The notes beneath the pieces were generated by a model. The model did not search any database, had not been told where the DNA came from, and saw only the letters and a program-made list of their open reading frames with translations. Source: Eudoraea adriatica DSM 19308 (GTDB lineage: Bacteria > Bacteroidota > Bacteroidia > Flavobacteriales > Flavobacteriaceae). From it: a DNA stretch of 64,000 nucleotides. Below, piece after piece: positions 7,863 through 48,090 of the stretch. The DNA is taken from NCBI RefSeq assembly GCF_000382125.1, contig NZ_KB907546.1:558001-622000 (forward strand), given 5' to 3'. Each line of letters opens with the position of its first letter. Positions within the stretch are counted from its first letter, which is position 1. The position numbers and the translations under genes were made by a program.

Positions 7863-8483
7863 ATGGATACTGACAACTTAAATTCCTCGTCATACAACTC
7901 GGTTTTGAAAAAAATAGCTGAAGCCGGAGAGTTGACAAGCATTGAAAAGGGTACTGAGATCCTGCGGGCGGGACAATTTGTAAAGGTCATACCGCTTGTT
8001 CAAAAAGGGTTGATCAAAGTCTACACCAGATATGAAGACCGGGAGCTTTTGCTGTACTATATACAGCCCAGCCAAAGTTGCATCATGTCTTTTTCTGCCA
8101 GTATCAATAACGAACCTAGTCAGGTATATGCTGTTACTGAGGAAGATACAGAAGCAATACTTATTCCGGTATCTAAATTGGATACCCTAACCAGGGAGAA
8201 CCCCCGCTTAAATGACTTCTTTTTTCAACAGTATAAAGGCAGATATGCAGAACTTTTGGATACCATACACTATGTGTTGTTCGACAAAATGGATAAACGT
8301 TTGCATCGTCATCTTAAGGATAAAATTGCTCTCAAAGGAGAAAATCCGGTTCAAATATCCCATCAGCAGTTGGCAAATGAGCTAGGAACTGTTCGGGAGG
8401 TGGTTAGTCGGGTTTTGAAAAAATTAGAGGGCGAAGGCATGGTCAGACAACAGGGCAATACCATTCAGGTATTCAAGCTGTGA
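7863..8483 (+). CDS. Crp/Fnr family transcriptional regulator
   Basis: 206 residues. The N-terminal part (about 10-125) is a cyclic-nucleotide-binding-type beta barrel (GTEILRAGQFVKVIPLVQKG, then ELLLYYIQPSQSCIMS), followed by the dimer helix and a winged HTH at about 160-206 with recognition helix GTVREVVSRVLKKLE. The E-x-x-S-R pattern there is the FNR-type reading head. There is no N-terminal cysteine cluster, so it is not an oxygen-sensing 4Fe-4S FNR; Cys73 is the only cysteine. It has its own transcription unit downstream of a terminator. A GTGAC-N4-GTCAC palindrome overlaps its stop codon, and the same 5-4-5 architecture recurs before the sulfur genes. It is therefore the best candidate in the window for the regulator of those genes. 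That link is inference. Confidence 0.9.
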   Translation: MDTDNLNSSSYNSVLKKIAEAGELTSIEKGTEILRAGQFVKVIPLVQKGLIKVYTRYEDRELLLYYIQPSQSCIMSFSASINNEPSQVYAVTEEDTEAILIPVSKLDTLTRENPRLNDFFFQQYKGRYAELLDTIHYVLFDKMDKRLHRHLKDKIALKGENPVQISHQQLANELGTVREVVSRVLKKLEGEGMVRQQGNTIQVFKL

Positions 8484-8523
8484 CTAAAGTCACTGTACAG
8501 CACGATTCTCTTTCCTAATTTTG
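8480..8523 (+). promoter_or_regulatory. Crp/Fnr-type operator plus -10 box for the DUF2892 gene
   Basis: The palindrome GTGAC-TAAA-GTCAC (8480-8493) overlaps the stop codon of the regulator gene. The Bacteroidota -10 box TAATTTTG lies at 8516-8523. The distance from palindrome centre to box start is 29.5 bp, which puts the operator near -41.5, the class II activator position. Confidence 0.7.
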
Positions 8524-8581
8524 TTTAGAAAGAAATACATACAGGAAAACAATAAAGCCGTTCTTGTTTTGCATAATCTTC

Positions 8582-8595
8582 ATAACCTTAGTTAT
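8582..8595 (+). promoter_or_regulatory. Second 5-4-5 palindrome before DUF2892 gene
   Basis: ATAAC-CTTA-GTTAT is a perfect inverted repeat with the same half-site spacing as the other operators. It lies in the predicted 5' leader of the DUF2892 gene. No clear -10 box is at the standard distance, so it may be a repressing site or a secondary site. Confidence 0.45.
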
Positions 8596-8642
8596 AAGGA
8601 TAGTCTGGCTTGTAAAAAATTGTCTAATTAATATTTAATATT

Positions 8643-8861
8643 ATGAAAAAAAACATGGGGTCTGCGGATAGAATCATTCGTTTTATTGTAGCTGCAATTA
8701 TTGCAGTGCTATATTTTAAAGAAATAATAGGTGGTACCCTTGGGATAATCCTACTGGTATTGGCAGGTATTTTTGTGCTGACCAGCTTTGTAAGCTTTTG
8801 TCCACTGTACGCACCTTTTGGAGTAAGTACTTGTCCTGCAAAAAAGATCGAAGAAAAGTAG
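8643..8861 (+). CDS. DUF2892 (YgaP-type) membrane protein
   Basis: 72 residues. An N-terminal MKKNMGSADRIIRF is followed by two closely spaced transmembrane helices (about 14-30 and 34-50) and a short tail FCPLYAPFGVSTCPAKK with two cysteines. This is the DUF2892 domain that is fused to rhodanese in Escherichia coli YgaP, but here it stands alone. In YgaP-like proteins it anchors sulfurtransferase activity to the membrane and has been tied to movement of sulfane sulfur or thiocyanate. The gene follows the Crp/Fnr-type regulator and has its own predicted regulator-dependent promoter. A second DUF2892 gene closes the efflux operon at 54075. Confidence 0.85.
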   Translation: MKKNMGSADRIIRFIVAAIIAVLYFKEIIGGTLGIILLVLAGIFVLTSFVSFCPLYAPFGVSTCPAKKIEEK

Positions 8862-8887
8862 CAATATTCCCCTTTATTAAAAATGAA

Positions 8888-8916
8888 GAGAGCGATTTGT
8901 CGCTCTTTTTTTTTTT
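8888..8916 (+). terminator. Rho-independent terminator after DUF2892 gene
   Basis: Perfect 7-bp stem AGAGCGA / TCGCTCT around a TTTG loop, followed by about ten T residues. Confidence 0.9.
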
Positions 8917-9069
8917 AGCCTCTGCATATATTTTACAGCCTGTATAACTAAGAAACCGATCTGATGATTTTTGAATTTTTTTCAGGAATTTTTTCGACTC
9001 GGTTGTTATATAAATAAGTCCCAAAAGAAAAGCGTTTTAAATCTTACTTATTAACCAAATTTTATTGTA

Positions 9070-9783
9070 ATGAAAAATTCATTTATTATTTTAATGGCTT
9101 CGGCCTTGTTTATTGTAGGTTGTTCTAAGGATGACAACGATGATAGTAGAATTCGTCTTTCCCTAAATGCCTTGAATGCCAGCGGCACCACTGCAAAGTC
9201 TACCTCTTATATAGGGAAGAACAACGAGAATGTAATTTTTACCGATTTCCGTATTTCTATACGTGATGTAGTGTTCAAGAACGATGACGACCCCAATAGT
9301 AATCTGGATACAGACGAAATTCAATTTAGAGGGCCTTACCAAATAGATTTGTTGAATGATGGTGATGCGTTGTCGCAAACTATTGGCGATGTAGTGGTCC
9401 CGGATGGCATGTATAAAGAGCTTCGCTTCAAATTTCACAAAGATGAAGACTTACCTTCAACCGATAAATTGTTCGACAAATCAATTTATATAGAAGGAAC
9501 AATTGACGGTCAGCCATTTATTTTCTGGCACGATACCAGCGAAAACCTGGATGTGGGCAGAAGCACTGGTGTTAAAGTTGCAGGAAATGTGATAAACTTC
9601 ACTGTAGCGTTTGATATGTCACAATTCTTAAGTTCGTTAAAACAAATAGATTTAAGCCAGGCCTTGGATGGCAATAAAAATGGTATTATTGAAATTTTTC
9701 CAAATGATGAAGATGGCAATCAGGATATTGCCGATGACCTAAAGGACAATATCAAAGAAACTGCTGATTTAATCAATAAGTAA
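9070..9783 (+). CDS. DUF4382-like lipoprotein
   Basis: 237 residues. The signal peptide ends in a lipobox FIVGCS (Cys about 18). The body contains beta strands with FTDFRISIRDVVFKND, then YQIDLLNDGDALSQTIGDVV and VPDGMYKELRFKFHKDED, the pattern seen in DUF4382 lipoproteins. In those proteins a carboxypeptidase-regulatory-like beta sandwich shows the 'x-x-L-x-x-G-D-A ... L-P-x-G-x-Y-x-x-I-R' order. The C-terminus is rich in Asp and Asn and may bind calcium (DGNKNGIIEIFPNDEDGNQD). No function is established for the family. It is monocistronic, with a strong terminator behind it. Confidence 0.7.
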   Translation: MKNSFIILMASALFIVGCSKDDNDDSRIRLSLNALNASGTTAKSTSYIGKNNENVIFTDFRISIRDVVFKNDDDPNSNLDTDEIQFRGPYQIDLLNDGDALSQTIGDVVVPDGMYKELRFKFHKDEDLPSTDKLFDKSIYIEGTIDGQPFIFWHDTSENLDVGRSTGVKVAGNVINFTVAFDMSQFLSSLKQIDLSQALDGNKNGIIEIFPNDEDGNQDIADDLKDNIKETADLINK

Positions 9784-9807
9784 ATACAAATTTTCGCATT
9801 TCAAAAA

Positions 9808-9840
9808 CATCCTTGAGATAATTCTCAAGGATGTTTTTAT
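9808..9840. terminator. Bidirectional Rho-independent terminator
   Basis: Perfect 11-bp stem CATCCTTGAGA / TCTCAAGGATG with a TAAT loop. T tracts on the plus side and A tracts on the other side let it serve both the lipoprotein gene at 9070 and the minus-strand operon ending at 9987. Confidence 0.9.
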
Positions 9841-9986
9841 TTTTAAACCATATTATTTCCCGAGCAGTGTAAAAAAAGTCTTTTTGAATTAGCGAGGGCC
9901 AATTTGAATGGTGTTCAGAATTATTATTCAATTTTTTTTGGTAAGAGGAACTTTACTAATTTGAAACATTTGCGTTGATGATTGGC

Positions 9987-11399
9987 TTATTCTCCGTTAT
10001 GAGGTATGTACCATACATTTTTTTCCAGATCAACACCCCCGCCCATTTCTTCCTGCACTACCCGGTCAATGATATAAATGCCTTTTTCAGCCATTGCATC
10101 AAATGTGTCTAAACCGTCATTCGGGAAGTTTACACGTGTTCTGTGGATATTAAACTTATCCGAAAATGTCCGCCCAAAGGCCTCCTCAACACCTTCCTTG
10201 CCAAGCATAAAGCCCAGAAGTCCACCCCAGGTAGCGGTAGGATTGTCAGAATCCCACCCGGCTAAAGCGCCAATCTTAATCGTCTCTTTTATGTCTCCTT
10301 CTCCGTATAAAAGGCTAACAATACTGGCACCAAAATTTATTCCTGCTGCAAAGCAACCATTGCAGAAAATATTTTTGGAAGTTATGGTATAGCCATCTTC
10401 CTGGTTCACCTGATAACGCTCATATAAGTCATCCCGGGCTTGTTCCCATGGGATATTTTCATCATACTTACCTTTTATAAAATCATACATCTTCGCTGAA
10501 TAGGAATCATTTGGAAGGTGCTCCCTGGCCTGATTAGCCATCCAATTTATTTGCTCTTTTTTCGAAAGGGTTTTATCAACTTCTGAAGCCAGCGAATACA
10601 TGATAACATAAAATTCAGAGATCCACTGTGCATTTTCCCGGGCAGTGGTTTGTATGGGTAATTCGGCCATTTTTAATGCAATATCTGGTCTCGAAGGGGC
10701 AAAAAGGCCAAATATCTCAGTAGTTAATTGTGCATCTATCATCTCATGATAGTTATCATATATACTGTCTTTCGTAATATTCGGGTCACTTGTTTCAGGT
10801 GGTACCGCCCCATTGAGCATCATATCAAGTGCTTTTTGATTCGCCACCCACAAGAAGTTTTCCTCTTCATGTTTTATATGCTTCAACCAGCCTTCTTTAA
10901 TATGTTTTCCGCTTAACATACTCGTTTTATTGGTATACAATAAATGCTGATACATATATTCAATATCCGTATCATCGTCAGCCCCCCATATCTCATTTTC
11001 ACCCCTGAATACAAAGTCTATGTTTTCTGATAATTCACTGGGAAGGCCTTCACCCCAGATGCTTGGCTGGTCTGGTTTTTCCCAATCCTCCCTGGTATAG
11101 AAGGGCCCGGTTTTTATTTCCCCTATGTTACCAATTTTATCCATTTCGGTTACCAGCCCGGTCCAATTGGCGATGCATTGGCCCAACCAGAAACCATATA
11201 ATTTGTCGGCATATTCTGAACGCGACATAACTTTGTCTGTTGCTTTCTGAGCGTAGGTATTATAGTCCAGTCCAGGGTCTGTCAATGCATTTTTAACCTG
11301 ATTAACCTCTTTTTTATTGGCATCCTTACAAGACATGACTCCCAGAACAAATAATAAGGCGGTTCCAATTAAACATAGACCTTTAAGTGAGTTTTTCAT
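9987..11399 (-). CDS. ADP-ribosylglycohydrolase family lipoprotein
   Basis: 470 residues, with lipobox GVMSCK (Cys24), so it is exported and lipid-anchored. The ADP-ribosylglycohydrolase fold is shown by DKLYGFWLGQCIANWTG (about 66-81) and the metal-binding acidic pair in WGADDDTDIEYMY (Asp141-Asp143, Asp145). The C-terminal ALAGWDSDNPTATWGGLLG (about residues 393-411) is the second di-metal motif of the family. Classical members release ADP-ribose from proteins or metabolites, but lipoprotein members found in sugar loci of Bacteroidota have no proven substrate and may hydrolyse another N- or O-glycosidic bond. It is the last gene of a minus-strand run with ThuA, a ketose 3-epimerase and an MFS transporter. 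Family assignment is firm; substrate unknown. Confidence 0.85.
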   Translation of the reverse strand: MKNSLKGLCLIGTALLFVLGVMSCKDANKKEVNQVKNALTDPGLDYNTYAQKATDKVMSRSEYADKLYGFWLGQCIANWTGLVTEMDKIGNIGEIKTGPFYTREDWEKPDQPSIWGEGLPSELSENIDFVFRGENEIWGADDDTDIEYMYQHLLYTNKTSMLSGKHIKEGWLKHIKHEEENFLWVANQKALDMMLNGAVPPETSDPNITKDSIYDNYHEMIDAQLTTEIFGLFAPSRPDIALKMAELPIQTTARENAQWISEFYVIMYSLASEVDKTLSKKEQINWMANQAREHLPNDSYSAKMYDFIKGKYDENIPWEQARDDLYERYQVNQEDGYTITSKNIFCNGCFAAGINFGASIVSLLYGEGDIKETIKIGALAGWDSDNPTATWGGLLGFMLGKEGVEEAFGRTFSDKFNIHRTRVNFPNDGLDTFDAMAEKGIYIIDRVVQEEMGGGVDLEKNVWYIPHNGE

Positions 11400-11442
11400 T
11401 TTAAGTATTTTTCATTGGTTAGCATAACTAAGTAAGCACATT

Positions 11443-12564
11443 CTATTCAAAATCCTTAACTTTTAATTGTTTATTAAGCCAGTAATCATCATCCCGGAAT
11501 TCATAAGCTGTGGGTTTAAAATTGCCAACAATTCCTACATCGGCTTTGGCCGGTACCTTCATGTCCATACACCAGAAAACACTGTTAACCAATAGTCTGC
11601 GAACCCCTTCGTTAAGCATATCCGTAGCCGCCCCAATGGTAGCAGTAAATACCTTTCCTTCATTACCCCCGGGTATCTGGTAACTTTTTGTCCATGCTAT
11701 GGGCATCATGGGATCATTAAGCAAGTCGCCATTATCATTTTTTGTTGCCGGAATGGTATCGGCAGGCCTCATCCCATAAAAAAGGTCCTCCTCATCAAAG
11801 TCTGCTTTACGTTCTGTGACTTCTCCCAAAATAATGGGCTCTGAATTTCCCGGTAGGGGCAACCTAACCCCATAAACATCCGTAGGCCCCCAGATATCCC
11901 CATCTTCAATACCGTTGGTTATAGGATGCGAATGCACTGGATCCGATATAATTCCCCTAGTGCTTTGATGCTTGTGGTGGCCGTGATGTGAAATCCATTT
12001 TTCACCTAAAACAAGGCGTCCAAAACCATCGATCCATTCTTTTTTGTCGCCTTCATAACCATTGCTGTAATGTATGTACTTAGAATTTGAATCCGCACTA
12101 AAATTAAAGGCATGGGTAGCTGTACGGATTCCTATTACGGGCTTCCCCCTTTTCAAATAATTATCTATGAATTTCATCTGATCATCCGGGAGGGCTCTGA
12201 ACCTCGTAAAGATTACCATCAGGTCTGCTGAATCCAAAGCATCCAATCCGGGGATGTTTTTCACATAATTGGCATTGATAATCCCAGGCTTTAATGGATC
12301 CTGTGCAAATAATACCGTACACCTAAAACCATGTTTGGCGGATAAAATTTTCGCTAATTGAGGTAATGCTTCTTCAGATCGGTACTCTTCATCACCAGAA
12401 ATTAAGACCACATGTTTAGCTTCAGTATTCTTAGAATTAAAAGTGAGCCATTGTTTTGACGCTACTTCTTCTTCCTCCGAATTTTTCTTTTCTGTCTTTT
12501 GCCCGCAAGCGGTGATCAGGAGGCAACCTATTAAAAGAATTAATGTTTTTTTCATGCTTTGCAT
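11443..12564 (-). CDS. ThuA-like domain lipoprotein
   Basis: 373 residues. Lipobox LLITACG marks a lipoprotein; the second ATG (12555) would remove only three residues. The ThuA/trehalose-utilisation glutamine-amidotransferase-like fold appears in HVVLISGDEEYRSEEALPQL (about 50-70), LDSADLMVIFTRFRALPDDQ (about 110-130), KPVIGIRTATHAF and HHGHHKHQSTRG. ThuA proteins occur with sugar oxidoreductases and are linked to catabolism of 3-keto-glycosides and trehalose-like disaccharides, but no reaction is firmly assigned. Here it lies between the ADP-ribosylglycohydrolase-like gene and the ketose 3-epimerase gene, with short gaps, so one transcript is likely. Confidence 0.85.
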   Translation of the reverse strand: MQSMKKTLILLIGCLLITACGQKTEKKNSEEEEVASKQWLTFNSKNTEAKHVVLISGDEEYRSEEALPQLAKILSAKHGFRCTVLFAQDPLKPGIINANYVKNIPGLDALDSADLMVIFTRFRALPDDQMKFIDNYLKRGKPVIGIRTATHAFNFSADSNSKYIHYSNGYEGDKKEWIDGFGRLVLGEKWISHHGHHKHQSTRGIISDPVHSHPITNGIEDGDIWGPTDVYGVRLPLPGNSEPIILGEVTERKADFDEEDLFYGMRPADTIPATKNDNGDLLNDPMMPIAWTKSYQIPGGNEGKVFTATIGAATDMLNEGVRRLLVNSVFWCMDMKVPAKADVGIVGNFKPTAYEFRDDDYWLNKQLKVKDFE

Positions 12565-12582
12565 TTATTAGTAGTACCCTAA

Positions 12583-13422: not shown

Positions 13423-13446
13423 TTTAAAAATTTTATAGGTACAAAA

Positions 13447-13486
13447 CAGAAAGAAAACTGCTATCAATTAATCAGACAGCAGTTCC
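13447..13486 (-). terminator. Possible intergenic terminator/attenuator after MFS gene
   Basis: On the minus strand AACTGCT (13484-13478) pairs with AGCAGTT (13462-13456) across a 15-base loop, followed by TTCTTT. It sits between the MFS gene and the epimerase gene, so it may only reduce read-through. Confidence 0.4.
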
Positions 13487-13513
13487 TTTTATTTTAAAAC
13501 AACAATAAAGAGC

Positions 13514-31927: not shown

Positions 31928-31997
31928 GTAACCAGTGTTACACAAGGCCCATTTATGACTTTTGTCATGTTTTACGGCTCCTCCTATAATTAATTTT
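31928..31997 (+). promoter_or_regulatory. Tandem Crp/Fnr-type operators and -10 box for sqr
   Basis: GTAAC-CAGT-GTTAC at 31928-31941 and ATGAC-TTTT-GTCAT at 31955-31968 are two perfect 5-4-5 palindromes 27 bp apart. TAATTTTA at 31990-31997 starts 28.5 bp from the centre of the downstream site, within one base of the spacing found at the other promoters of the set. Confidence 0.7.
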
Positions 31998-32054
31998 ACA
32001 TCACTTAATACAAGTAAAAAAGTCTTGTATTTAAACTAAACAAGGTAAATAGTT

Positions 32055-33299
32055 ATGAAAAACGTAGTCATTTTAGGCGCAGGAACTTCCGGAACAATGA
32101 TGGCAAATCATTTGGAATCTACACTACCCAAAAAGGAGTGGAAAATAACCATTGTAGACCAATATAAAACACATTATTATCAGCCTGGATTCTTATTTCT
32201 TCCATTTGATATTTATACGACAAAACAGGTTAAGAAAAAAGGAGCCAAGTTTTTACCTAAAGGGGTAAACTATATCCAGGAAAAAATAGATTTAATAATA
32301 CCGGAGAAAAACAAGGTAGTGCTTGCAGATAACCGTGAGTTGCCGTATGATATTTTAATAGTAGCTACAGGAACGAAAACTGTACCTGAAGAAATTGAAG
32401 GCATGATGAGTCCAAAATGGTATAAAAATGTCTTTGACTTCTATACTTACGAAGGTGCCAAGGCATTAAGGGATAAATTTAGAACCTGGGAGGGTGGAAA
32501 ACTGGTAGTCCACATCACTGAAATGCCTATTAAATGTCCTGTAGCACCGCTGGAGTTTGCATTTTTGGCCGATTCCTATTTCAAAAACAAAGGAATGCGG
32601 GATAAGGTAGATATAACCTTTGTGACACCACTTGATGGAGCTTTTACTAAACCTCGAGCTACAGAGGCCCTTCATTATTTATTGGAAGAGAAGAATATTA
32701 AAGAAGTTACCGATTTTAATATAGAGCGCGTAGATTATGAGAATAACAAGATCATAGATTACGCGGATACAGAGGTAGAATATGATCTTTTAGTAACCGT
32801 TCCTACAAATATGGGTGATCCATTGCTGGAACGCTCAGGTTTGGGAGATGATCTCAATTATATTCCTACCGATAAAGCGACTCTGCAGTCCACAGATCAT
32901 GAGAATATATTTGCTATAGGGGATGCTACCAATTTACCGGCATCAAAAGCGGGTTCGGTGGCTCATTTTGAAGCTGAAATTCTAACCGAAAACATATTAC
33001 GCTATATAAATGGTGAGGAATTAAAAGAAGAATTTGATGGTCATGCCAATTGTTTCATTGAAACTGGAGGAGGTAAAGCATTATTAATAGATTTTAACTA
33101 TACAACGGAACCGGTTGAAGGTACATTTCCGTTTCCCGGTGTAGGACCATTAAAACTCTTAAAAGAGAGCAGAATGAATCATATGGGTAAACTTGCCTTC
33201 CGCTGGATATATTGGAACATGCTCTTAAAAGGTGTGCCTATACCATTTGTGGATGCACAAATGTCGGAAAAAGGGAAACAATTAGAAAAAGTAAAATAA
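32055..33299 (+). CDS. sqr: Sulfide:quinone oxidoreductase-like flavoprotein
   Basis: 414 residues, two-dinucleotide-binding-domain flavoprotein. FAD motif ILGAGTSGTMMANHL (about 6-20), KCPVAPLEFAF with Cys161, and HANCFIETGGGKA with Cys333. Those are the two cysteines that carry the sulfur chain in quinone-reducing SQRs. The third, N-terminal Cys of some types is absent. GD at 289-290 (FAIGDATNLPASK) binds the flavin ribityl chain. The C-terminal helices (from about 365) would dip into the membrane to reach quinone. It oxidises sulfide to persulfide or polysulfide at the cytoplasmic face and reduces quinone. The gene has two Crp/Fnr-type sites upstream, starts an operon with TusE and DsrE genes, and lies ahead of the persulfide dioxygenase region. 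Confidence 0.88.
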   Translation: MKNVVILGAGTSGTMMANHLESTLPKKEWKITIVDQYKTHYYQPGFLFLPFDIYTTKQVKKKGAKFLPKGVNYIQEKIDLIIPEKNKVVLADNRELPYDILIVATGTKTVPEEIEGMMSPKWYKNVFDFYTYEGAKALRDKFRTWEGGKLVVHITEMPIKCPVAPLEFAFLADSYFKNKGMRDKVDITFVTPLDGAFTKPRATEALHYLLEEKNIKEVTDFNIERVDYENNKIIDYADTEVEYDLLVTVPTNMGDPLLERSGLGDDLNYIPTDKATLQSTDHENIFAIGDATNLPASKAGSVAHFEAEILTENILRYINGEELKEEFDGHANCFIETGGGKALLIDFNYTTEPVEGTFPFPGVGPLKLLKESRMNHMGKLAFRWIYWNMLLKGVPIPFVDAQMSEKGKQLEKVK

Positions 33300-36349: not shown

Positions 36350-36388
36350 ATTTCTATCAATTTAAGTGATCAAAATTATATAACTATA

Positions 36389-36670: not shown

Positions 36671-37984
36671 CTAGTTAAGGAATTTGTAACTCGCTCCAAC
36701 CATAATCATACTGGTGGTCATATCATAGGATACTTCACTTCCCGGAATTGCTCCGTAAGGAGGGAAGTTTGAAATAAACTGAGGATTAAGTAATGGTCCT
36801 GAAGTGGCCTCCCCACTAAAGCCCATGTGGTAAACACCATCAATTGCCCAACGATCACTTATTTCATAACTCAAGCCCAGTTGAAAGGCATTTTTAATAA
36901 CCGCTGTCGCGGGTACGCTAAAGAATGCCACATCACTTTCAATAGGATTTCCACTGTAGGTATATCCAAGTCGTAATGGCAATCTGTCTATACCTTTAAA
37001 CTGTATTCCCGCAGAAACAATGCTGATATTCTTCCAGCCAAATCCTGCAACGGAAAAAGTCGGGGTCCAACCTACGGCTGAAAACCCGGAAGCCTTATCG
37101 TATTGCACATACCTGTAATCAGCTGCAATATCAAACTGGCCAACAGAATAACCAAGGCCAAGGGACCACATAGCAGGATAATCTATTTTGAATTTATTCT
37201 CGCCGGTACTGGAATCAAGATAAACGTTCTCCAGCGTAAAATCGCCAAAAGACTGCTTCGTTTTATAAGAAGCTCCGGCGGAGAATCCATTACCTGAATC
37301 ATAGAATAATCCAAATTGAGCTCCAAAACCAAAAGCGGTTGACTTATCTGCAGATGGATATCCGGCAGTTGGACTTGGATTGGCAGTTGGGTTTGGTATT
37401 AATTTGAGTGATGCATAGTTGAAAGTAGGTTGAATACCTACAGAGAACTTATCGGAGAGTTCATAAGCATATGTGAATCCTAACTGCAACAAGCTGTAAT
37501 CAGATTCAACCCGGCCAAATCCGCCCATATTCTGTGGCATATTAATGGGATTGGTGGTGCTTTCCGGGAAAGTAACCCCAAATCCACTAATTCCAAAAGC
37601 CGAAGCACCAAAGGTATGCCTGCTACCTTCTTTACCCCAAACCATGGCTAAAGCTGGCAAAGGAGAAACACCTCTGTCGTCTTCAGTTGTGCCACTGAAG
37701 AAATTTCCGGTGGGTGCACCGGTACTGTCAAACTCGGGTACAGTGGAACTCAATTCCGGAGAGGAGAAGAATAAACCCAGGTCAAACTTAATGGTTTTCT
37801 CATCAAATGTTGAAAGAGAAGCAGGGTTCCATTGAATTGCACCTGAAATATCTAATGGCTGACCGGTAGCGGCCCCGCCCATCGACATGTTTACGGCACC
37901 AACACCCTGCATGATATGGCCTGCCTGTGAAAAGGCAGCAGTTGCAAATAATAGAAAACAAAGTTTTAGAAAATATGCTTTCAT
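36671..37984 (-). CDS. OmpP1/FadL-family outer-membrane porin
   Basis: About 437 residues from the ATG at 37984. I prefer this start because it gives a normal signal peptide (MKAYFLKLCFLLFATAAFSQA); a longer frame would begin at 38029. The mature N-terminus GHIMQGVGAVNMSMGGA is the FadL-family hatch pattern with the NPA motif in IQWNPASLS. Beta-barrel strands fill the rest, ending YKFLN. FadL-type channels let hydrophobic compounds cross the outer membrane. It has its own promoter with a Crp/Fnr-type palindrome (ATGAT-N4-ATCAT) and is divergent from the persulfide dioxygenase gene, so it may belong to the sulfur regulon; its cargo could be a hydrophobic sulfur compound or elemental sulfur, which is inference. 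Confidence 0.88.
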   Translation of the reverse strand: MKAYFLKLCFLLFATAAFSQAGHIMQGVGAVNMSMGGAATGQPLDISGAIQWNPASLSTFDEKTIKFDLGLFFSSPELSSTVPEFDSTGAPTGNFFSGTTEDDRGVSPLPALAMVWGKEGSRHTFGASAFGISGFGVTFPESTTNPINMPQNMGGFGRVESDYSLLQLGFTYAYELSDKFSVGIQPTFNYASLKLIPNPTANPSPTAGYPSADKSTAFGFGAQFGLFYDSGNGFSAGASYKTKQSFGDFTLENVYLDSSTGENKFKIDYPAMWSLGLGYSVGQFDIAADYRYVQYDKASGFSAVGWTPTFSVAGFGWKNISIVSAGIQFKGIDRLPLRLGYTYSGNPIESDVAFFSVPATAVIKNAFQLGLSYEISDRWAIDGVYHMGFSGEATSGPLLNPQFISNFPPYGAIPGSEVSYDMTTSMIMVGASYKFLN

Positions 37985-38080: not shown

Positions 38081-38124
38081 CAAAATTAACTTCAACATTA
38101 TCAATTATTTATGATAAATATCAT
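38081..38124 (-). promoter_or_regulatory. Crp/Fnr-type operator plus -10 box for the FadL-type gene
   Basis: On the minus strand the palindrome ATGAT-AAAT-ATCAT (38111-38124) is followed by TAATTTTG (38088 down to 38081). Centre to box start is 29.5 bp, exactly as at the DUF2892, TolC and P2 promoters. Confidence 0.68.
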
Positions 38125-38261: not shown

Positions 38262-38305
38262 GTAACCAAAGTTACATTCAAGGGGTGGAAGGGTGCTAAT
38301 TTTTG
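38262..38305 (+). promoter_or_regulatory. P1 operator-promoter of the persulfide dioxygenase operon
   Basis: GTAAC-CAAA-GTTAC (38262-38275), with TAATTTTTG ending at 38305. Its TTTG is at the same offset (33.5 bp from the centre) as in the other modules. Confidence 0.6.
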
Positions 38306-38362: not shown

Positions 38363-38406
38363 ATGATAATTGTCATTCTTTTTTGGTTGTCAAAAAGCGA
38401 GTTTTG
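38363..38406 (+). promoter_or_regulatory. Weaker third operator-like module before the same operon
   Basis: ATGAT-AATT-GTCAT (38363-38376) is an inverted repeat with one mismatch. GAGTTTTG (38399-38406) puts TTTG at the standard offset but has GA in place of TA. It overlaps the first base of the P2 operator. Confidence 0.35.
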
Positions 38407-38449
38407 TAACCTTGGTTACTGTAAAAGTGTTATATCCTTAATACTTTTA
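38406..38449 (+). promoter_or_regulatory. P2 operator-promoter of the persulfide dioxygenase operon
   Basis: GTAAC-CTTG-GTTAC (38406-38419) and TACTTTTA (38442-38449), centre to box start 29.5 bp. It is the promoter proximal to the gene at 38486. Confidence 0.68.
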
Positions 38450-38485: not shown

Positions 38486-39901
38486 ATGAAAATTGAACAG
38501 ATTTATACAGGATGTCTGGCCCATGCAGCTTATTACATAGAAAGTAAAGGAGAAGCTGCCATATTTGATCCATTGAGAGAGGTAGAACCCTATATTGAAA
38601 GGGCAAAAAAAGATAATGCCTTAATAAAGTATGTTTTTGAGACTCATTTTCATGCAGATTTTGTTAGTGGTCATTTAGATTTAAAGAAAAAAACCGGTGC
38701 AGAAATTGTTTTTGGCCCTACTGCCAAACCCGGATATGAGGCTACCGTTGCCAAAGACAATCAAATTTTCAGGGTTGGCGATTATCAGGTTAAAGTGATT
38801 CACACCCCGGGGCATACTATGGAGAGCACTACCTATTTGTTAATTGATGAGAATGGAGAGGAGCATGGCATAATAACCGGTGATACATTATTTATTGGAG
38901 ATGTTGGCAGACCAGATCTTGCCCAGCACGTAATTTCTGAACTTACAGAGGAAAAACTGGCAGGGCATTTATACGATTCACTTCGTAACAAAATAATGCC
39001 ACTAAAAGATAATTTGATTGTTTACCCTAACCATGGGGCTGGTTCTGCCTGTGGAAAAATGATGAGTAAGGAGACAACGGACACTTTGGGGCATCAGAAA
39101 AAAGTTAATTATGCGCTTAGGGCTAATATGACAAAAGATGAGTTCATAAAGGAACTGCTTACGGGCTTAACAGCACCTCCGGGTTATTTTCCACAAAATG
39201 TTTTGATGAATATTAAAGGATATGAGAGTCTGGACACCATTAAAGAAAGAGGGGAAAAACCTTTGTCAGCTGATGCCTTTGAAGTAGCTGCAAATGAAAC
39301 GAAGGCTCTAATGCTGGATACGCGCACACCGAGAGATTTTGCAAGAGGCCATATTCCTAATAGCATAAATATAGGCCTGGATGGAAATTTTGCACAGTGG
39401 GTTGGAGAATTGATACCCGATGTAAAACAGGAAATTTTGTTAATAACCTATCCGGGTAAGGAAGAAGAGGCCATAACCAGACTTTCAAGAGTTGGTTATG
39501 ACCATACTATTGGTTACCTGGATGGTGGATTTGATGCATGGCAAAAAAGTAAGAAGCAGGTTGAAAGAATTAAAAGGATAACTGCAGAACAATTTGAAAA
39601 GGCATATTTTGGAGAAGGACCACTTGCCTTTGATGTAAGGAAAAAAAGTGAATTCGATTCCGAACATGTCATTGGTGCCATCAATATTCCTTTAAATGAA
39701 TTAAATCAGCATCTTTCTCAATTTCCTAAGGATAAACCCTTTGTGCTTTATTGTGAAGGAGGCTATAGAAGTATGATCGCAGCATCCATGTTAATGCAGC
39801 GGGGTTGGGACGATTTTGTTGATGTCTCTGACGGATTTGATGAAATTAAAAAAACAAAGGTTGAGAAATCGGAGTATAAATGTCCGACAACCATGTTATA
39901 A
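38486..39901 (+). CDS. Persulfide dioxygenase-rhodanese fusion (CstB-like)
   Basis: 471 residues in three parts. The metallo-beta-lactamase domain (1-245) has ETHFHADFVSGH (His54, His56, Asp58, His63), His110 in HTPGHTMEST and Asp133 in TGDTLFIGDVGRPD. His110 and Asp133 are in the positions of ETHE1 iron ligands, with His183 nearby in PNHGAGSACG. A rhodanese-like domain without the catalytic Cys follows (about 255-355). A C-terminal active rhodanese has Cys423 in LYCEGGYRS (about 365-455). This is the architecture of Staphylococcus CstB, which oxidises glutathione or coenzyme A persulfides to sulfite and thiosulfate. It is cytoplasmic, with two Crp/Fnr-type promoters upstream. The gene for SQR, its likely source of persulfide, is about 5 kb upstream. 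No CsoR/CstR-type repressor is next to it. Confidence 0.9.
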   Translation: MKIEQIYTGCLAHAAYYIESKGEAAIFDPLREVEPYIERAKKDNALIKYVFETHFHADFVSGHLDLKKKTGAEIVFGPTAKPGYEATVAKDNQIFRVGDYQVKVIHTPGHTMESTTYLLIDENGEEHGIITGDTLFIGDVGRPDLAQHVISELTEEKLAGHLYDSLRNKIMPLKDNLIVYPNHGAGSACGKMMSKETTDTLGHQKKVNYALRANMTKDEFIKELLTGLTAPPGYFPQNVLMNIKGYESLDTIKERGEKPLSADAFEVAANETKALMLDTRTPRDFARGHIPNSINIGLDGNFAQWVGELIPDVKQEILLITYPGKEEEAITRLSRVGYDHTIGYLDGGFDAWQKSKKQVERIKRITAEQFEKAYFGEGPLAFDVRKKSEFDSEHVIGAINIPLNELNQHLSQFPKDKPFVLYCEGGYRSMIAASMLMQRGWDDFVDVSDGFDEIKKTKVEKSEYKCPTTML

Positions 39902-42609: not shown

Positions 42610-42620
42610 AACTTTTTATT

Positions 42621-43562: not shown

Positions 43563-44025
43563 ACCATTCAATATTTGATAATACTTCACGTCTTCCTTTT
43601 TTCTTTGGGGGGTAATTTGTAACCAGATAGTTTACAATGACTTCCTCATTATTTCCCAAATCCCATAAATTTTGTGTTTCCTGCATCCATCTTATGGTAG
43701 CTATCCAGCGTTCTTCATTCATTCTGTTTTGGGTAACCAGTTTTGCAGAATGGCAGTTAGTACAATTATTTACTACGGTCATTAATCCGTCGGCTTCAAT
43801 AAGCCCGGTTCTGACATGTATGCCATTTTCAATTTTGTCAAAATCGTCCGTTTCCGGAATAGCGACATATTCAGGCTCAACTTCAGTTACTTTTTTCCGG
43901 GTCCAGTCAGGATTAGACACTAACAGGAGGATTCCTATTGCAGCCACAATGAATAAGCCGAATAAACCCGCCATAAGTCTGTAGATGGCTTTTACCTGTT
44001 GTTTGAACTTGGCGTGATCCTGCAT
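43546..44025 (-). CDS. Monoheme cytochrome c, SorB-like
   Basis: 159 residues. An N-terminal transmembrane helix (about 18-36) anchors it. The heme site CTNCH is at 88-92 in MTVVNNCTNCHSAKLVT; the distal Met may be in RWIATIRWMQETQN. The start is directly after the stop of the sulfite oxidase gene, so the two are translated together, as for SorA/SorB. It should take electrons from the molybdoenzyme and pass them to the respiratory chain. The trans-membrane anchor differs from the soluble SorB of Starkeya, a variation seen in other membrane-tied relatives. Confidence 0.85.
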   Translation of the reverse strand: MQDHAKFKQQVKAIYRLMAGLFGLFIVAAIGILLLVSNPDWTRKKVTEVEPEYVAIPETDDFDKIENGIHVRTGLIEADGLMTVVNNCTNCHSAKLVTQNRMNEERWIATIRWMQETQNLWDLGNNEEVIVNYLVTNYPPKKKGRREVLSNIEWYDLEN

Positions 44026-45246
44026 TTATGTAACCTTTATTGCGATTCTGTGACATGCGTTATTCAGGTACCCCTTTGGGTTCCAGCCCGGTAATAGCAT
44101 GGGTTGACTTATGCCCCTGGAATCCGTTGCCCTTGCCCATATTTCATAATACCCTTTCTTTGGAAAGTCTATGGAAGCGCTAAAATGTTGCCATGCCAAT
44201 CTGTTTGACGGTTTTTCTATGGGGCAGGTCTGCCAGGTGGAACCAAAATCTATAGAATATTCCATTCGTTCTACTTCAAGTTCTCCGGCCCAGGCATGTC
44301 CGCGGATATCCAGTTTTTTACCCTTACTGATCATAGCCCCGGATTTTGGATAGGTAATCAATGATTTTACCGGCATGGATTCAATAATACACATATCTTC
44401 CTCTTTAACCTTTTCTCCCGGTGCCACCGGATAACATGGAACCCTGTAAGCGTCTCCGGTCATTTTTGTACCATCATGAACTTTATTTCGTATGCTGATT
44501 CCATTTAACCATTTTCCCGAAACAGAAGCGGGCCAGCCTCCTGCTACCAGTCTTATCGGGTAACCATGTGCAAGCGGAATATCCTCATTGTTCATTTTAA
44601 AGGCAAGCAGGGTTTCTTCCTGAAGGGCCTTTACCATAGGAGCACCCCGAGAAATAGGTTCTTTCCCCGGATCCCTGCTCAGATGCACATCGGCCGCGTG
44701 ATAACCAATATAAACCGCATCGTCATTTATACCAACATCTTCGAGAACGTCCTTTAGCCTGACACCGGTCCAGTTGGCACAGGAAACGGCACCTACCGTC
44801 CATTGGTTTCCTTTTGCAGGCGGGTCGAATTCGCTTCTGCCGTTGCCTCCGCATTCCAATGTCAATTGATAGGTATATTGTGGAAATTTGGATTTTAATT
44901 CGGCCAGAGTATATGTTTTCTTCTGAGCTGCAGATTCCCCATCAAAAGTTATAGTCCAATTATTTATGTCTATATTTTCGGGGATTAACCCATTGTTTCG
45001 TATAAACATAAACTTGTTAGGCGTTACTTTATCATCCAAAAGGTGGGCCTTAGCCTCAATATTCCATGGTTTGTCGTTCAATATTTCCATTCCCGTATCC
45101 TTATTGAACATTTTAAAAGGGTCAGGGTCCTGCAGAGCCAGTGGTTTATAGCCTTCCGGCAGAACGGCGCCAAATACAATATCCGCGCCTATTACTGACG
45201 CCATGGAACCTAAGGTTGCCTTTTTAACAAAGTTTCGTCTTTTCAT
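44026..45246 (-). CDS. SorA-like sulfite dehydrogenase (molybdopterin)
   Basis: 406 residues. A twin-arginine signal (MKRRNFVKKATLGSMASV) sends it folded to the periplasm. The oxidoreductase molybdopterin domain has LTLECGGNGRSEF with Cys132 as the molybdenum ligand, and GAVSCANWTGVRLKDVL. A C-terminal Mo-co dimerisation domain (about 275-400, GHAWAGELEVERMEYSIDFG) completes the sulfite oxidase fold. It oxidises sulfite to sulfate and passes electrons to the cytochrome c encoded next to it. Heads the minus-strand operon sorA-cytochrome-rhodanese-lipid hydroxylase and has its own Crp/Fnr-type operator. A SoxC-like role is the alternative but no sox genes are in the window. Confidence 0.9.
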   Translation of the reverse strand: MKRRNFVKKATLGSMASVIGADIVFGAVLPEGYKPLALQDPDPFKMFNKDTGMEILNDKPWNIEAKAHLLDDKVTPNKFMFIRNNGLIPENIDINNWTITFDGESAAQKKTYTLAELKSKFPQYTYQLTLECGGNGRSEFDPPAKGNQWTVGAVSCANWTGVRLKDVLEDVGINDDAVYIGYHAADVHLSRDPGKEPISRGAPMVKALQEETLLAFKMNNEDIPLAHGYPIRLVAGGWPASVSGKWLNGISIRNKVHDGTKMTGDAYRVPCYPVAPGEKVKEEDMCIIESMPVKSLITYPKSGAMISKGKKLDIRGHAWAGELEVERMEYSIDFGSTWQTCPIEKPSNRLAWQHFSASIDFPKKGYYEIWARATDSRGISQPMLLPGWNPKGYLNNACHRIAIKVT

Positions 45247-45270
45247 TAGATTAGTTTATATCCAAAGTAA

Positions 45271-45315
45271 TAAAATTAAGAATTTATTTAATAAAGTACA
45301 TGTAACAAATGTTAC
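45271..45315 (-). promoter_or_regulatory. Crp/Fnr-type operator plus -10 box of the sulfite dehydrogenase operon
   Basis: GTAAC-AAAT-GTTAC at 45302-45315 and, on the minus strand, TAATTTTA from 45278 to 45271. Centre to box start 30.5 bp, one more than the commonest spacing. Confidence 0.6.
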
Positions 45316-45507
45316 CGTACTTAAAATTGACTCTGATTAAATCCAGGTAAATGTAAAATCTTTCCGTTTTGCAACTCCTGTCCGTTTTGTAACTCATAGA
45401 ATTGTAAGTACGGATAACAAATTATTTCTTTTTGGAATAGACTTCATTCTATTACTAAAATTAAGATTTTACAACTGCTTAAATTCTTTAGACAAATTTT
45501 TCCGCTT

Positions 45508-45521
45508 GTAACATATGTTAC
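45508..45521 (+). promoter_or_regulatory. Crp/Fnr-type palindrome before the DUF6799 gene
   Basis: GTAAC-ATAT-GTTAC, a perfect match to the half-site of the set, 102 bases upstream of the start at 45623. No clear -10 box stands at the usual offset on either strand, so its effect is uncertain; the tract also separates the divergent sorA operon. Confidence 0.5.
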
Positions 45522-45622
45522 TGAAAAACACTGTATTTAAAGAGTCTAGATGATTTAGATCATTGTTCTTGATTCATTGGTCCATTAGGTTTGTAACATT
45601 ATTAATTATAAATCTCAATACC

Positions 45623-46300
45623 ATGAAAAAGATATTTTTTTTAGTTGCGTTTCTGGTTTTTGGATCTATTTTTCTTACAGCCCAGGAAAGGGATCAGGAT
45701 AGAATACAGGATCAGGACCGCACAAAGTTAGTAATGATTAATGGTGAAATGCTGGAATTAAGAGATCGCGCAGAAATGCGTCTCAAAGAAAAACAGACTT
45801 TATCAGATGGGTCTGTGGTATCTCCCGACGGAACATATGAGACATATGATGGTTCCCGATTGAAATTAAAGAATGGTGAATGCTTAGATGGTGATGGCAT
45901 TAAATACAGAAATGAGTATCAGTACCGGTACAAGGTAAGTCAGGAAAATAAAGGATTAACCCAGGATCAAATTAGGGAAAGAAATCAGAATAGGTTGCAT
46001 TATACCATGGTTGATGGAGAAATGTTTTTGGTAAGGAATCAGAGCCAACGACGTTTGGAAGAAAGTCTGGATCTTGGAAATGGAGTAGTAGTAAACCCTG
46101 ATGGAAGTTTTCAAACCAGAGATCAAAAAAGATTGCGTTTGCATGACGGACAATGCCTGAATGAATATGGTCAAATGTTCAGTAATATGTATCAGTACCG
46201 AAAAATGATACTTCAAAAAAATATGACCCCTAATAAAAAGATGATTAAAAAAGGCGTTAAAAAGCCTACCGCCAAAAAAAAGAAAAAGATTACAAAATAG
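45623..46300 (+). CDS. Secreted DUF6799 repeat protein
   Basis: About 225 residues from the ATG at 45623, which gives a clean signal peptide (MKKIFFLVAFLVFGSIFLTAQ). Two DUF6799 units (about 35-85 and 120-172) share the pattern 'M-x-x-G-E-M ... S-D-G-S-V-V-S-P-D-G ... L-K-N-G-E-C-L', each ending in a conserved Cys after Asn/Asp-Gly. The tail is a run of Lys/Thr/Pro. The domain function is unknown; beta-hairpin repeats with metal or ligand binding are plausible. A Crp/Fnr-type palindrome lies upstream, and a hairpin separates it from the outer-membrane gene behind. Confidence 0.8.
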   Translation: MKKIFFLVAFLVFGSIFLTAQERDQDRIQDQDRTKLVMINGEMLELRDRAEMRLKEKQTLSDGSVVSPDGTYETYDGSRLKLKNGECLDGDGIKYRNEYQYRYKVSQENKGLTQDQIRERNQNRLHYTMVDGEMFLVRNQSQRRLEESLDLGNGVVVNPDGSFQTRDQKRLRLHDGQCLNEYGQMFSNMYQYRKMILQKNMTPNKKMIKKGVKKPTAKKKKKITK

Positions 46301-46307
46301 GAATCAT

Positions 46308-46342
46308 AAGGGGTTCCTCTTGAAATAAGTAGGAGCCCTTTA
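46308..46342 (+). terminator. Hairpin/terminator between DUF6799 and barrel genes
   Basis: AAGGGGTTCC (46309-46318) pairs with GGAGCCCTTT (46332-46341) with one or two wobbles and a 13-base loop, followed by TAAG. Weak T tail. Confidence 0.5.
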
Positions 46343-46362
46343 AGCATTTAAAGTAATCTAAA

Positions 46363-47253
46363 ATGAAACTTCGACTCACTTTTTATTTCATAGTATTCTC
46401 GTTTGCCCCTCTGCTCCTTATGGCACAGGATCCTGTAAAAAATAATATTAACAAGGCTGAAGAGGGCTTTTCCTATTTTTTAGCAGATGTCAGTTACATC
46501 AATGACTATGTTTTTATGGGAAGACGCGATTCTATTGCAGCCCCTTATCTGATTCCTTCAATAGGGTATTACGATAAATCGGGGTTTTTCGCTGATGCCT
46601 CCCTGTCATTTCTAACTGCATCTGAAGCCAGTCGGGTTGACCTTATTTGGCTCAGTGCGGGTTACCTCTTTAATGCAAATAAGTTTAGTGGAGGTATTTC
46701 CGGGACTGCTTACTTTTTTAATGAGGAAAGTAACAATGTCATGTCGTCTGTTGTTGGTGATCTCACAGGGATTATTGGTTATGACTTTAAATTACTTGAA
46801 ACTACCCTTTATTTAAGTACTTATTTTAATGATGGTAGCAAAAATGATTTTATTGGGGGCTTAATGTTTGACCGCACATTTTATGCTATCAATAAAAACC
46901 TTTTAATTAACCCGAGGATTTCTTTTTATGCAGGGTCACAATATTTTTATGAGCAATACTACAGTAACAGCCGTCTGGGAAACAGAAAAGGCAAAGGTAT
47001 GGGTAATACTGGTTCCGGAGTATCAGATTCCAATATGGTTAACATTGAAGAAGTTCAAAAATTTAATTTTCTTAATATAGAACTCGAAATTCCATTGCAA
47101 TACAATTACAAGAAATTTATTTTTTCATTTAACCCTATGCTGGCGTTACCCCAGAGCAGTGCAACCATTTATAGTGAAGACACTTTAATTACAGAAGATT
47201 TAGAACCCGTTTTCTATTGGTCGGTCGGGGTAAGCTACTGGTTTATACCTTAA
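46363..47253 (+). CDS. Predicted outer-membrane beta-barrel protein
   Basis: 296 residues. Signal peptide (1-22, ending LLMAQD), then alternating hydrophobic and polar strands rich in Tyr, Phe and Gly, ending VGVSYWFIP, the aromatic C-terminus of outer-membrane barrels. A Gly/Asn-rich loop is at about 205-228. Nothing in it identifies a ligand. It sits between DUF6799 and upp and could be cotranscribed with DUF6799. Structural class is likely; function unknown. Confidence 0.7.
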   Translation: MKLRLTFYFIVFSFAPLLLMAQDPVKNNINKAEEGFSYFLADVSYINDYVFMGRRDSIAAPYLIPSIGYYDKSGFFADASLSFLTASEASRVDLIWLSAGYLFNANKFSGGISGTAYFFNEESNNVMSSVVGDLTGIIGYDFKLLETTLYLSTYFNDGSKNDFIGGLMFDRTFYAINKNLLINPRISFYAGSQYFYEQYYSNSRLGNRKGKGMGNTGSGVSDSNMVNIEEVQKFNFLNIELEIPLQYNYKKFIFSFNPMLALPQSSATIYSEDTLITEDLEPVFYWSVGVSYWFIP

Positions 47254-47289
47254 TTAATGTATCTTTAATGTAAACCATAAGGCAGGCAT

Positions 47290-47943
47290 ATGATCATTCA
47301 TAATTTTGGAGCTGAAAATTCCTTGCTCAATCAATTTGTCGCAGAACTGAGAGATGTTAATATTCAAAAGGATTCCATGCGTTTCCGAAGAAATATTGAA
47401 CGAATTGGGGAAATCCTAAGTTATGAATTAAGCAAAACCCTTAATTATAAAGTTAATACAGTTCAGACCCCTTTTGGTCATAAGGCTATGTCATTGCCTT
47501 TAAATAATCTTGTGTTGTGTTCCGTACTAAGAGCTGGCTTACCTTTACACCGCGGCTTATTGAATTACTTTGATAAAGCGGAAAACGCATTTATTTCGGC
47601 TTACCGGCATCATCCAGGCGAGGGGGATGAATTTGATGTCATAGTTAAATATTTTGCGGCACCAGCTTTGGGGGGTAAAACCCTGATACTGACAGATCCA
47701 ATGCTGGCTACGGGCAAAACATTGGAGAATGTTTTAAACGCCTTAAAAAGCCATGGCCAACCCAAACAGATACACATCATTTCTGTTATTGGTTCTAAAG
47801 CGGGGATTGCGTATGTAAAAAGCGTTTTCCCTGAAAATACGCATTTATGGATAGCTGCGATTGACGATGAATTAACCGGTAAAGGATATATAATACCCGG
47901 GCTGGGGGATGCCGGGGATCTGTCCTACGGAACCAAACTTTGA
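47290..47943 (+). CDS. upp: Uracil phosphoribosyltransferase
   Basis: 217 residues, normal length. It converts uracil and PRPP to UMP in pyrimidine salvage. The PRPP loop ILTDPMLATGKTLENV and the uracil-binding YIIPGLGDAGDLSYGTK near the C-terminus are clear. It starts 37 bases after the barrel gene. The gene has no visible tie to the sulfur operons beside it and is most likely a conserved housekeeping unit. Confidence 0.96.
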   Translation: MIIHNFGAENSLLNQFVAELRDVNIQKDSMRFRRNIERIGEILSYELSKTLNYKVNTVQTPFGHKAMSLPLNNLVLCSVLRAGLPLHRGLLNYFDKAENAFISAYRHHPGEGDEFDVIVKYFAAPALGGKTLILTDPMLATGKTLENVLNALKSHGQPKQIHIISVIGSKAGIAYVKSVFPENTHLWIAAIDDELTGKGYIIPGLGDAGDLSYGTKL

Positions 47944-48023
47944 AATTTCGTTCAGCGATGCTGAAATATGCGGCTCAATTTATATTTTTCCTTTTCCATT
48001 AAAATATTCAGTTACATTATTCT

Positions 48024-48090
48024 GTAACATTTGTTACCGGGTTTTGGTAACATTGGTTACGGTCTGCCCCTTCTTCAAAGTCTAATTTTG
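48024..48090 (+). promoter_or_regulatory. Tandem Crp/Fnr-type operators and -10 box of the TolC-RND operon
   Basis: GTAAC-ATTT-GTTAC (48024-48037) and GTAAC-ATTG-GTTAC (48047-48060) lie 23 bp apart, about two helical turns. TAATTTTG (48083-48090) starts 29.5 bp from the centre of the nearer site. Confidence 0.72.

Follow-up and report, generated by a model that had tools for sequence, protein, structure and literature searches.

Sulfur-island promoters of Eudoraea adriatica carry putative class II operators that several Crp/Fnr paralogues, rather than one, appear to read

The question raised by this locus is which regulator, or regulators, read a set of short inverted repeats that stand before sulfur genes. 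The window, meaning the whole stretch analysed, is 64,000 nucleotides of Eudoraea adriatica DSM 19308 (contig NZ_KB907546.1, here C1; C1:558001-622000 in a genome of 3.9 Mb) and holds a sulfur island with sqr, a persulfide dioxygenase-type gene, sorA and an efflux operon. The nearest matches of its sqr are from a Flavobacteriaceae metagenome-assembled genome (97%) and from Eudoraea (92-94%). An earlier note had read twelve 5-4-5 inverted repeats here as one regulon of the Crp/Fnr-type regulator encoded at 7863. Our reading, which we consider probable, is that these repeats function as class II operators for a number of Crp/Fnr paralogues, which would share one promoter geometry, each with its own half-site; at least three related regulators, rather than one, appear to read them. 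Contigs (C), loci (L) and genomes (G) are cited by our own labels, and unlabelled positions are those of the window.

Three operator types, named by half-site, were distinguished: GTGAC, GTAAC and ATGAY. All seven GTAAC-N4-GTTAC repeats of the earlier note are present (31928, 38262, 38406, 45302, 45508, 48024 and 48047), as is its single ATAAC-N4-GTTAT copy at 8582. The sites of the GTGAC/ATGAC/ATGAT kind also exist, counted there as four and here as five outside genes (8480, 31955, 38111, 38363 and 45550), with one arm position unequal in 38363. Their noncoding position holds against the 14 listed genes, except that 8480 shares 4 bases with the 3' end of the regulator gene. For eight operators a TAnnTTTG box lies at exactly 29.5 bp from the operator centre; it is perfect (6/6) for 8480, 38111, 45550 and 48047, and matches at 5/6 positions for 31955, 38262, 38363 and 38406 (Table 1). 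Among the four boxes previously given as exact, those at 8516, 38088 (minus strand) and 48083 are perfect and the one at 38442, TACTTTTA, reaches only 5/6; the 38262 box (AATTTTTG, 5/6) has the offset described for it. Two boxes had been placed one base off, which is correct for sorA (45302, at 30.5 bp) and wrong for sqr, where TAATTTTA starts at 31991, exactly at 29.5. The perfect 45550 box had been omitted altogether.

Several candidates were set aside. A relaxed scan returned two sites inside genes (10746 and 44050), which we reject as operators, and an imperfect noncoding site at 36366, all three without a box. The ATAAC repeat at 8582 was likewise rejected as a boxed operator, having no box at 29.5 on either strand, and the ATAAY class has none at that offset among 15 sites.

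The spacing is conserved irrespective of the operator word. When every perfect 5-4-5 inverted repeat with a perfect TAnnTTTG box was tallied by offset, four locus sets, overlapping in part, each peaked at 29.5 bp: 11 vs at most 2 at other offsets in 29 family loci of regulator relatives, 32 vs at most 5 in 80 sqr loci, 7 vs at most 2 in 27 further (order-level) regulator loci, and 16 vs at most 3 in 30 loci of a regulator paralogue described below, its own locus included. GTAAC, GTGAC, ATGAT or ATGAC make up 62 of the 66 repeats at this offset across the four sets. A Flavobacterium psychrophilum study puts the TAnnTTTG box at -12 to -5 (PMC9723704); since the box lies 29.5 bp away, the operator centre would be at -41.5, the class II Crp-type position, as judged from the F. 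psychrophilum box. Crp/Fnr-type operators in this presumed geometry, proposed in the earlier note, precede sqr, persulfide dioxygenase, FadL-type porin, TolC-RND operon and other genes of the window. The geometry itself recurs across species, and to judge from the sequences compared, the promoter signals look real and conserved in related species.

In 300 dinucleotide shuffles of the window, exact GTAAC-N4-GTTAC occurred on average 0.02 times vs 7 observed, and operators with at least a 5/6 box at 29.5 bp 0.003 times vs 8. The genome has nine exact GTAAC copies, namely the seven already listed, one at 12.7 kb from the window on its left side and one on contig C4, so that eight of nine lie in or near the sulfur island. 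This total is not above a rough reversed-pattern control (9 vs 13), and what is exceptional about GTAAC is its clustering and position, rather than its genome total. The C4 copy (C4:343285), within an open frame and without a box, was rejected as an operator. The left-hand copy, which the earlier note could not have seen, and an ATGAY operator, whose box TACTTTTA (5/6) is again exactly at 29.5, precede an operon (L009 758-7183, C1:538758-545183) for a multihaem cytochrome, a DUF5777 barrel, a 4Fe-4S protein, NrfD and a cytochrome c.

The sqr promoter combines two operator types. Among 80 sqr promoters (300 bp) from named genomes, 51 had a class site with at least a 5/6 box at 29.5; these 52 sites, 49 ATGAY and three GTAAC, compare with at most 8 at any other offset. 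A further 49 GTAAC sites had no box, and both types were found together in 34 of the 80. Across the whole 80 sqr loci, which contain 121 boxed ATGAY sites, 32 pairs have GTAAC 15-45 bp ahead of a boxed ATGAY and 14 have it further upstream, at 46-150 bp; in three it lies downstream. The spacing was exactly 27 bp in 12 of the 32 pairs; this is the window's own spacing, and it recurs in 12 other genomes. Operators and spacing are kept at sqr loci while the spacers diverge. Of the 49 sqr ATGAY boxes, 41 end in TTTA and seven in TTTG, and the TTTA-ending ones may be more activator-dependent.

As to the possible readers, four HTH_Crp_2 proteins stand among the six proteins with a cNMP-binding domain in this genome. 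The 7863 protein, a paralogue from outside the window with Arg-Val in its recognition helix (C1:195375-196004), a receiver-Crp fusion and an FNR-like protein all pass the cut-offs of PF00027 and PF13545 and therefore belong to the Crp/Fnr family. NCBIfam scores do not place 7863 with CRP proper (54.5 bits vs an equivalog cut-off of 266) or with Fnr (27.8 vs 228), nor, in a scan made for 7863 only, with NtcA (22.8 vs 245). It lacks the FNR cysteine set, as previously stated, and has a single cysteine, Cys73. Its AlphaFold model (predicted local distance difference test 84.5, predicted template modelling score 0.60) has CRP-fold matches, many with alignments at 10-14 Å root-mean-square deviation, and places Cys73 immediately before a short helix (74-81). 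All of the 82 regulators compared, whichever helix type they have, share this cysteine, and in an alignment to Vfr its equivalent in the Arg-Val protein adjoins the cAMP-pocket motif, where the Gly-Glu of Vfr, which belongs to the residues that contact cAMP, reads Ala-Met. A cysteine also occupies the aligned position in 3dv8, a Crp/Fnr protein of Eubacterium rectale and the best PDB match of both regulators (E 4e-19 and 2e-18), at a low identity of 24%. Cys73 could plausibly sense sulfane sulfur (persulfide).

Residues R180 and E181 are reported to set the half-site, and HcpR2, with Pro181, has the motif GTAACnnnnGTTAC (PMC1274295). Close relatives of 7863 (51-55% identity), with the Arg-Glu helix TAREVx[ST]R, occur in 5 of 59 other family genomes, and in all five a GTGAC-type site with a perfect box at 29.5 lies just 3' of the gene (arm unequal in L045). 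In the window and in L013 a YgaP-like gene follows the GTGAC site, as it does, by eye, in L014-L017, L020, L058, L059 and L062. The Arg-Val paralogue is common: of 198 other family genomes, 150 have a match at E 1e-60. Its helix is of the TSRVVxSR type where read. GTAAC sites next to it precede genes for TauE/SafE (L019), a sulfate permease (L030) and a sulfur-transport protein (PF04143, L039), among others; metallo-beta-lactamase/rhodanese, SQR-like and cytochrome targets were named by eye. We took 82 distinct regulators, counting identical proteins once, and defined adjacency as 20 bp before to 300 bp after the 3' end. A perfect boxed class site adjoined 32 of them: Arg-Val with GTAAC in 15 cases and with GTGAC in none, Arg-Glu with GTGAC in 13 and with GTAAC in four (Fisher p 7e-6 for helix type vs operator word, relatedness ignored). 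As a separate observation, another gene, YgaP-like by eye (L054 14284-14600), follows a metallo-beta-lactamase/rhodanese gene near the Arg-Val regulator and has an ATGAC-N4-ATCAT operator with a 5/6 box at 29.5.

Genomes with one regulator type, where the other counts as absent if it has no match at the thresholds used, separate the two further. In the Arg-Glu-only genomes (G010 and G066) one of ten exact GTAAC sites is boxed, and that one is without a clear gene; the regulator-adjacent site is boxed in both, GTGAC in G010 and mixed in G066. In the Arg-Val-only genomes GTAAC is boxed in 3 of 5 copies (G027) and in 6 of 8 examined out of 11 exact copies (G031). Pfam-scanned targets there are two TolC-type genes, an HMA protein and an SQR-like flavoprotein; TauE, cytochrome and desaturase-like targets were named by eye, with the start of the desaturase-like one (after L297 3796) unclear. 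TolC-type, SQR, HMA and fatty-acid-hydroxylase genes are also present in the window's island. Because the boxes track Arg-Val in these genomes, we assign GTAAC to the C1:195375-196004 paralogue and not to 7863. As in the window, a boxed GTAAC thus stands before a TolC-type gene in L293 and L296, from two genomes without a 7863-type match.

ATGAY sites form a broader class. The genome holds 68 ATGAY-N4-RTCAT sites vs 7 in the reversed control, and in a 517-kb sample of it, partly chosen for ATGAY sites, 13 of 25 had at least a 5/6 box at 29.5, with at most 2 at other offsets. Eight of these 13 lie outside the sulfur island, where the genes that follow include those for MlaE, cytochrome c, a universal stress protein and, by eye, a LytTR-type regulator. 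Two Thr-Glu proteins are candidate readers. The first, which we favour, is the receiver-cNMP-Crp fusion (L056 6717-7775, C4:461720-462775). Its neighbours encode a PAS histidine kinase and universal stress proteins, and an ATGAT site with a perfect box stands beside it, before one of the universal stress protein genes. ATGAY sites outnumber the control 561 to 209 in 17 genomes with the fusion and 158 to 141 in six without it (Mann-Whitney p 0.008, or 0.010 without our own genome, in a comparison chosen post hoc and with relatedness ignored).

An alternative that we regard as possible, though doubtful, is that ATGAY belongs to the second Thr-Glu protein, the FNR-like one (L055 7458-8153, C5:227458), so that the second sqr input would be oxygen via an iron-sulfur cluster and not a phosphorelay. 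ATGAT resembles the FNR half-site, and 30 of 30 such proteins keep Cys7, 10, 56 and 109, which gives C5:227458 by sequence the four cysteines of an FNR-like protein, in a spacing that we take to differ from the E. coli FNR set. The gene adjoins a metal-transport P-type ATPase. However, ATGAY enrichment follows the fusion and not the FNR-like gene (p 0.31), whose own loci lack a boxed-site peak, and it is the fusion that has the perfectly boxed ATGAT beside it. The two proteins share the helix type and may overlap in sites.

That 7863 alone runs one sulfur regulon, the claim of the earlier note, with a degenerate RTRAY operator covering all twelve sites, is improbable in our judgement. The gene does border the sulfur region and has a boxed site next to its 3' end, four Arg-Glu relatives adjoin GTAAC, and the 29.5 geometry is common to all three classes. 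Against this, Arg-Glu relatives were found at GTGAC in 13 of 17 cases and Arg-Val proteins at GTAAC in 15 of 15; only one in ten exact GTAAC copies is boxed in Arg-Glu-only genomes; and where only Arg-Val was found, in two genomes, boxed GTAAC is kept before TolC-type, TauE, SQR-like and other genes. G010, which has no match to the Arg-Val, FNR-like or receiver-Crp proteins at the thresholds used, shows no ATGAY enrichment (26 vs 42). The genome-wide enrichment of ATGAY, with eight boxed sites of the sample outside the island and before unrelated genes such as MlaE and universal stress protein genes, also speaks against a single sulfur regulon, and such sites before unrelated genes, if equally frequent there, form part of what the earlier note itself said would refute its claim. 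That the palindromes repress, or are terminators or chance repeats beside ordinary AT-rich sequence, is very improbable, since the sites without a 29.5 box and the partial boxes at other offsets, which would suit it, are set against the shuffle means, a single-base peak in four locus sets and operators and spacing kept between diverged spacers.

A number of observations weigh against the reading of several paralogues on one promoter frame. No box at 29.5 was found for 31928, 45508 and 48024, and the sorA box is at 30.5; these four sites must therefore act from upstream or otherwise. A boxed class site is lacking in 29 of the 80 sqr promoters; in 18 of them the only class sites are unboxed GTAAC (many of these promoters are from Allomuricauda/Flagellimonas), 10 have none at all and one has an unboxed ATGAY. 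No perfect boxed site was found beside 50 of the 82 regulators, our own Arg-Val gene included; no GTAAC site lies near that gene, and its 20-kb locus has no boxed GTAAC within two mismatches; the Arg-Val locus L219 holds a boxed GTGAC elsewhere (both strands counted). In L066, L070, L071 and L075, from another family, a different gene of about 280 aa follows the GTGAC site (DUF5777 in L070). The partial choice of the 517-kb sample and the results for the FNR-like gene, which does not track ATGAY counts and has no 29.5 peak in 30 loci (2 matches, other offsets at most 1), also count here. Finally, four Arg-Glu regulators (L061, L063, L064 and L065; all from one other family) adjoin GTAAC with a 5/6 box, at sites with C/G-rich spacers. 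The second paralogue found in each of these genomes is likewise Arg-Glu, so position 181 is not the sole decider; the exceptions could point to a second specificity residue. The helix-operator rule, as drawn from these regulators and their adjacent sites, is strong, not absolute, and fits the reported role of residues 180 and 181 in half-site choice (PMC1274295).

On the several-paralogue reading, one frame would serve all sites: the operator would be centred at -41.5, the Bacteroidetes TAnnTTTG box would span -12 to -5, and half-site choice would be set mainly by helix positions 180 and 181 (E. coli CRP numbering). The 7863 protein (Arg-Glu) would read GTGAC and, alone, chiefly control the YgaP-like gene just downstream. 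The Arg-Val paralogue would read GTAAC and act as the main sulfur activator, both of sqr, persulfide dioxygenase, sorA and TolC-RND and, left of the window, of the multihaem/PsrBC-like operon. A Thr-Glu regulator, most likely the receiver-Crp fusion and alternatively the FNR-like protein, would read ATGAY, layering a broader regulon on the sulfur promoters. At sqr the ATGAY protein would occupy -41.5 and contact polymerase, with the Arg-Val protein bound about 27 bp further upstream, and we infer that full expression would need both, a sulfur signal and a redox or stress signal. At tolC the GTAAC sites are in tandem, the proximal one in the presumed class II position. More tentatively, we suggest for Flavobacteriaceae a sulfur sensor of the Crp family whose cAMP pocket has been lost and whose invariant cysteine lies beside it. 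It would bind a GTAAC operator of the NtcA kind, upstream of a receiver-Crp protein driven by a phosphorelay. The two would form a two-signal (sulfane sulfur plus redox/stress) gate on sqr across much of the family, and a third paralogue would have diverged, chiefly through a single helix residue, to a GTGAC operator of its own.

Parts of this arrangement are known from other systems. E. coli has promoters with two Crp-family dimers, for example FNR at -41.5 with CRP further upstream. The likeness would be two Crp-family proteins per promoter, one at -41.5; the regulators and signals differ, and here a Bacteroidetes -7 box is present. The known sulfide/persulfide regulators SqrR, BigR, CstR and FisR likewise control sqr and persulfide dioxygenase genes, but belong to the ArsR, CsoR and sigma54-activator families, whereas the candidates here are of the Crp family. 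NtcA acts at class II promoters with an operator GTAN8TAC at about -41.5 and a -10 box (PMC3898017). GTAAC-N4-GTTAC satisfies that pattern, and its predicted centre is likewise at about -41.5. However, NtcA answers to 2-oxoglutarate and serves nitrogen genes, whereas the Arg-Val relatives sit with sulfur genes, and the Arg-Val protein is distant from it (2xgx, E 2e-7; 8h3v, E 5e-7). HcpR2 resembles the Arg-Val group in its motif GTAACnnnnGTTAC, the replaced Glu181 and the lack of an FNR-type cysteine motif (PMC1274295). It differs in having Pro181 and hcp genes, where the Arg-Val group has Val181 and mostly sulfur-related and efflux neighbours (hcp was not searched for, and the comparison was made without a tree). 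HcpR of Desulfovibrio is a Crp/Fnr-like regulator predicted, like our candidates, for sulfur energy genes (sat, apsAB and a putative thiosulfate reductase; PMC545781). Its operator is TTGTGAN6TCACAA and its role lies in sulfate reduction and hcp, with predicted repression of sat/apsAB (PMC545781), as opposed to sulfide oxidation and a predicted class II geometry here.

Neither the protein family nor the class II geometry nor the residue 180/181 rule is new. Our searches of the open-licence literature returned no paper on the regulation of sulfide oxidation in this group, and an exact-motif search returned only PMC1274295, on hcp genes; papers on RedB (PMC9603854) and an anammox meta-regulon (PMC8510549) had no bearing on these motifs. 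An NtcA-/HcpR2-like operator for sulfide oxidation in Flavobacteriaceae and a conserved two-operator sqr promoter, both as predicted here, were not met in those searches. For a large group of marine bacteria, the analysis thus proposes which regulators may govern sulfide oxidation and gives their exact operators. It also describes a natural paralogue series in which operator choice mostly follows helix residues 180/181; because the paralogues share one promoter frame, the pairing of regulator and operator is directly testable.

Table 1. Putative operators and neighbouring genes of the window (box matches to TAnnTTTG; distances from operator centre)
Feature	Position	Strand	Basis
Crp/Fnr-type regulator, 206 aa, helix TVREVVSR (Arg-Glu)	7863..8483	+	Pfam HTH_Crp_2, cNMP_binding over cut-off
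GTGAC-N4-GTCAC operator, box TAATTTTG 8516-8523 (6/6, 29.5 bp)	8480..8493	+	scan; kept beside orthologues
YgaP-like transmembrane protein (PF11127, DUF2892)	8643..8861	+	
GTAAC-N4-GTTAC operator, sqr promoter; centre 27 bp upstream of ATGAC operator	31928..31941	+	
ATGAC-N4-GTCAT operator, box TAATTTTA 31991-31998 (5/6, 29.5 bp)	31955..31968	+	
sqr, type III sulfide:quinone reductase	32055..33299	+	NCBIfam NF049943 659 bits, cut-off 525
FadL/TodX-type outer membrane protein	36671..37984	-	PF03349
ATGAT-N4-ATCAT operator of porin, box TAATTTTG 38088-38081 (6/6, 29.5 bp)	38111..38124	-	
GTAAC operator, box AATTTTTG 38298-38305 (5/6, 29.5 bp)	38262..38275	+	
ATGAT-N4-GTCAT operator, box GAGTTTTG 38399-38406 (5/6, 29.5 bp)	38363..38376	+	
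GTAAC operator, box TACTTTTA 38442-38449 (5/6, 29.5 bp)	38406..38419	+	
Metallo-beta-lactamase/rhodanese fusion, presumed persulfide dioxygenase type	38486..39901	+	PF00753, PF00581
SorA/SorT-like sulfite dehydrogenase	44026..45246	-	PF00174, PF03404; NCBIfam SorA 210 bits, below 600-bit cut-off
GTAAC operator upstream of sorA, box TAATTTTA 45278-45271 at 30.5 bp	45302..45315	-	
GTAAC operator, centre 42 bp upstream of 45550 ATGAT operator, without own box	45508..45521	+	
ATGAT-N4-ATCAT operator, box TAGGTTTG 45586-45593 (6/6, 29.5 bp)	45550..45563	+	
DUF6799 protein, downstream of 45508/45550 operators	45623..46300	+	
GTAAC operator, distal of two before tolC, without own box	48024..48037	+	
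GTAAC operator, proximal before tolC, box TAATTTTG 48083-48090 (6/6, 29.5 bp)	48047..48060	+	
TolC-type 48109-49410, HlyD/CusB-like 49418-50506, AcrB-like RND pump 50567-53761	48109..53761	+	

The 659 bits of the window's SQR (32055-33299; cut-off 525) are its score against the NCBIfam selenoprotein subtype of type III SQR, although the frame runs open from start to stop.

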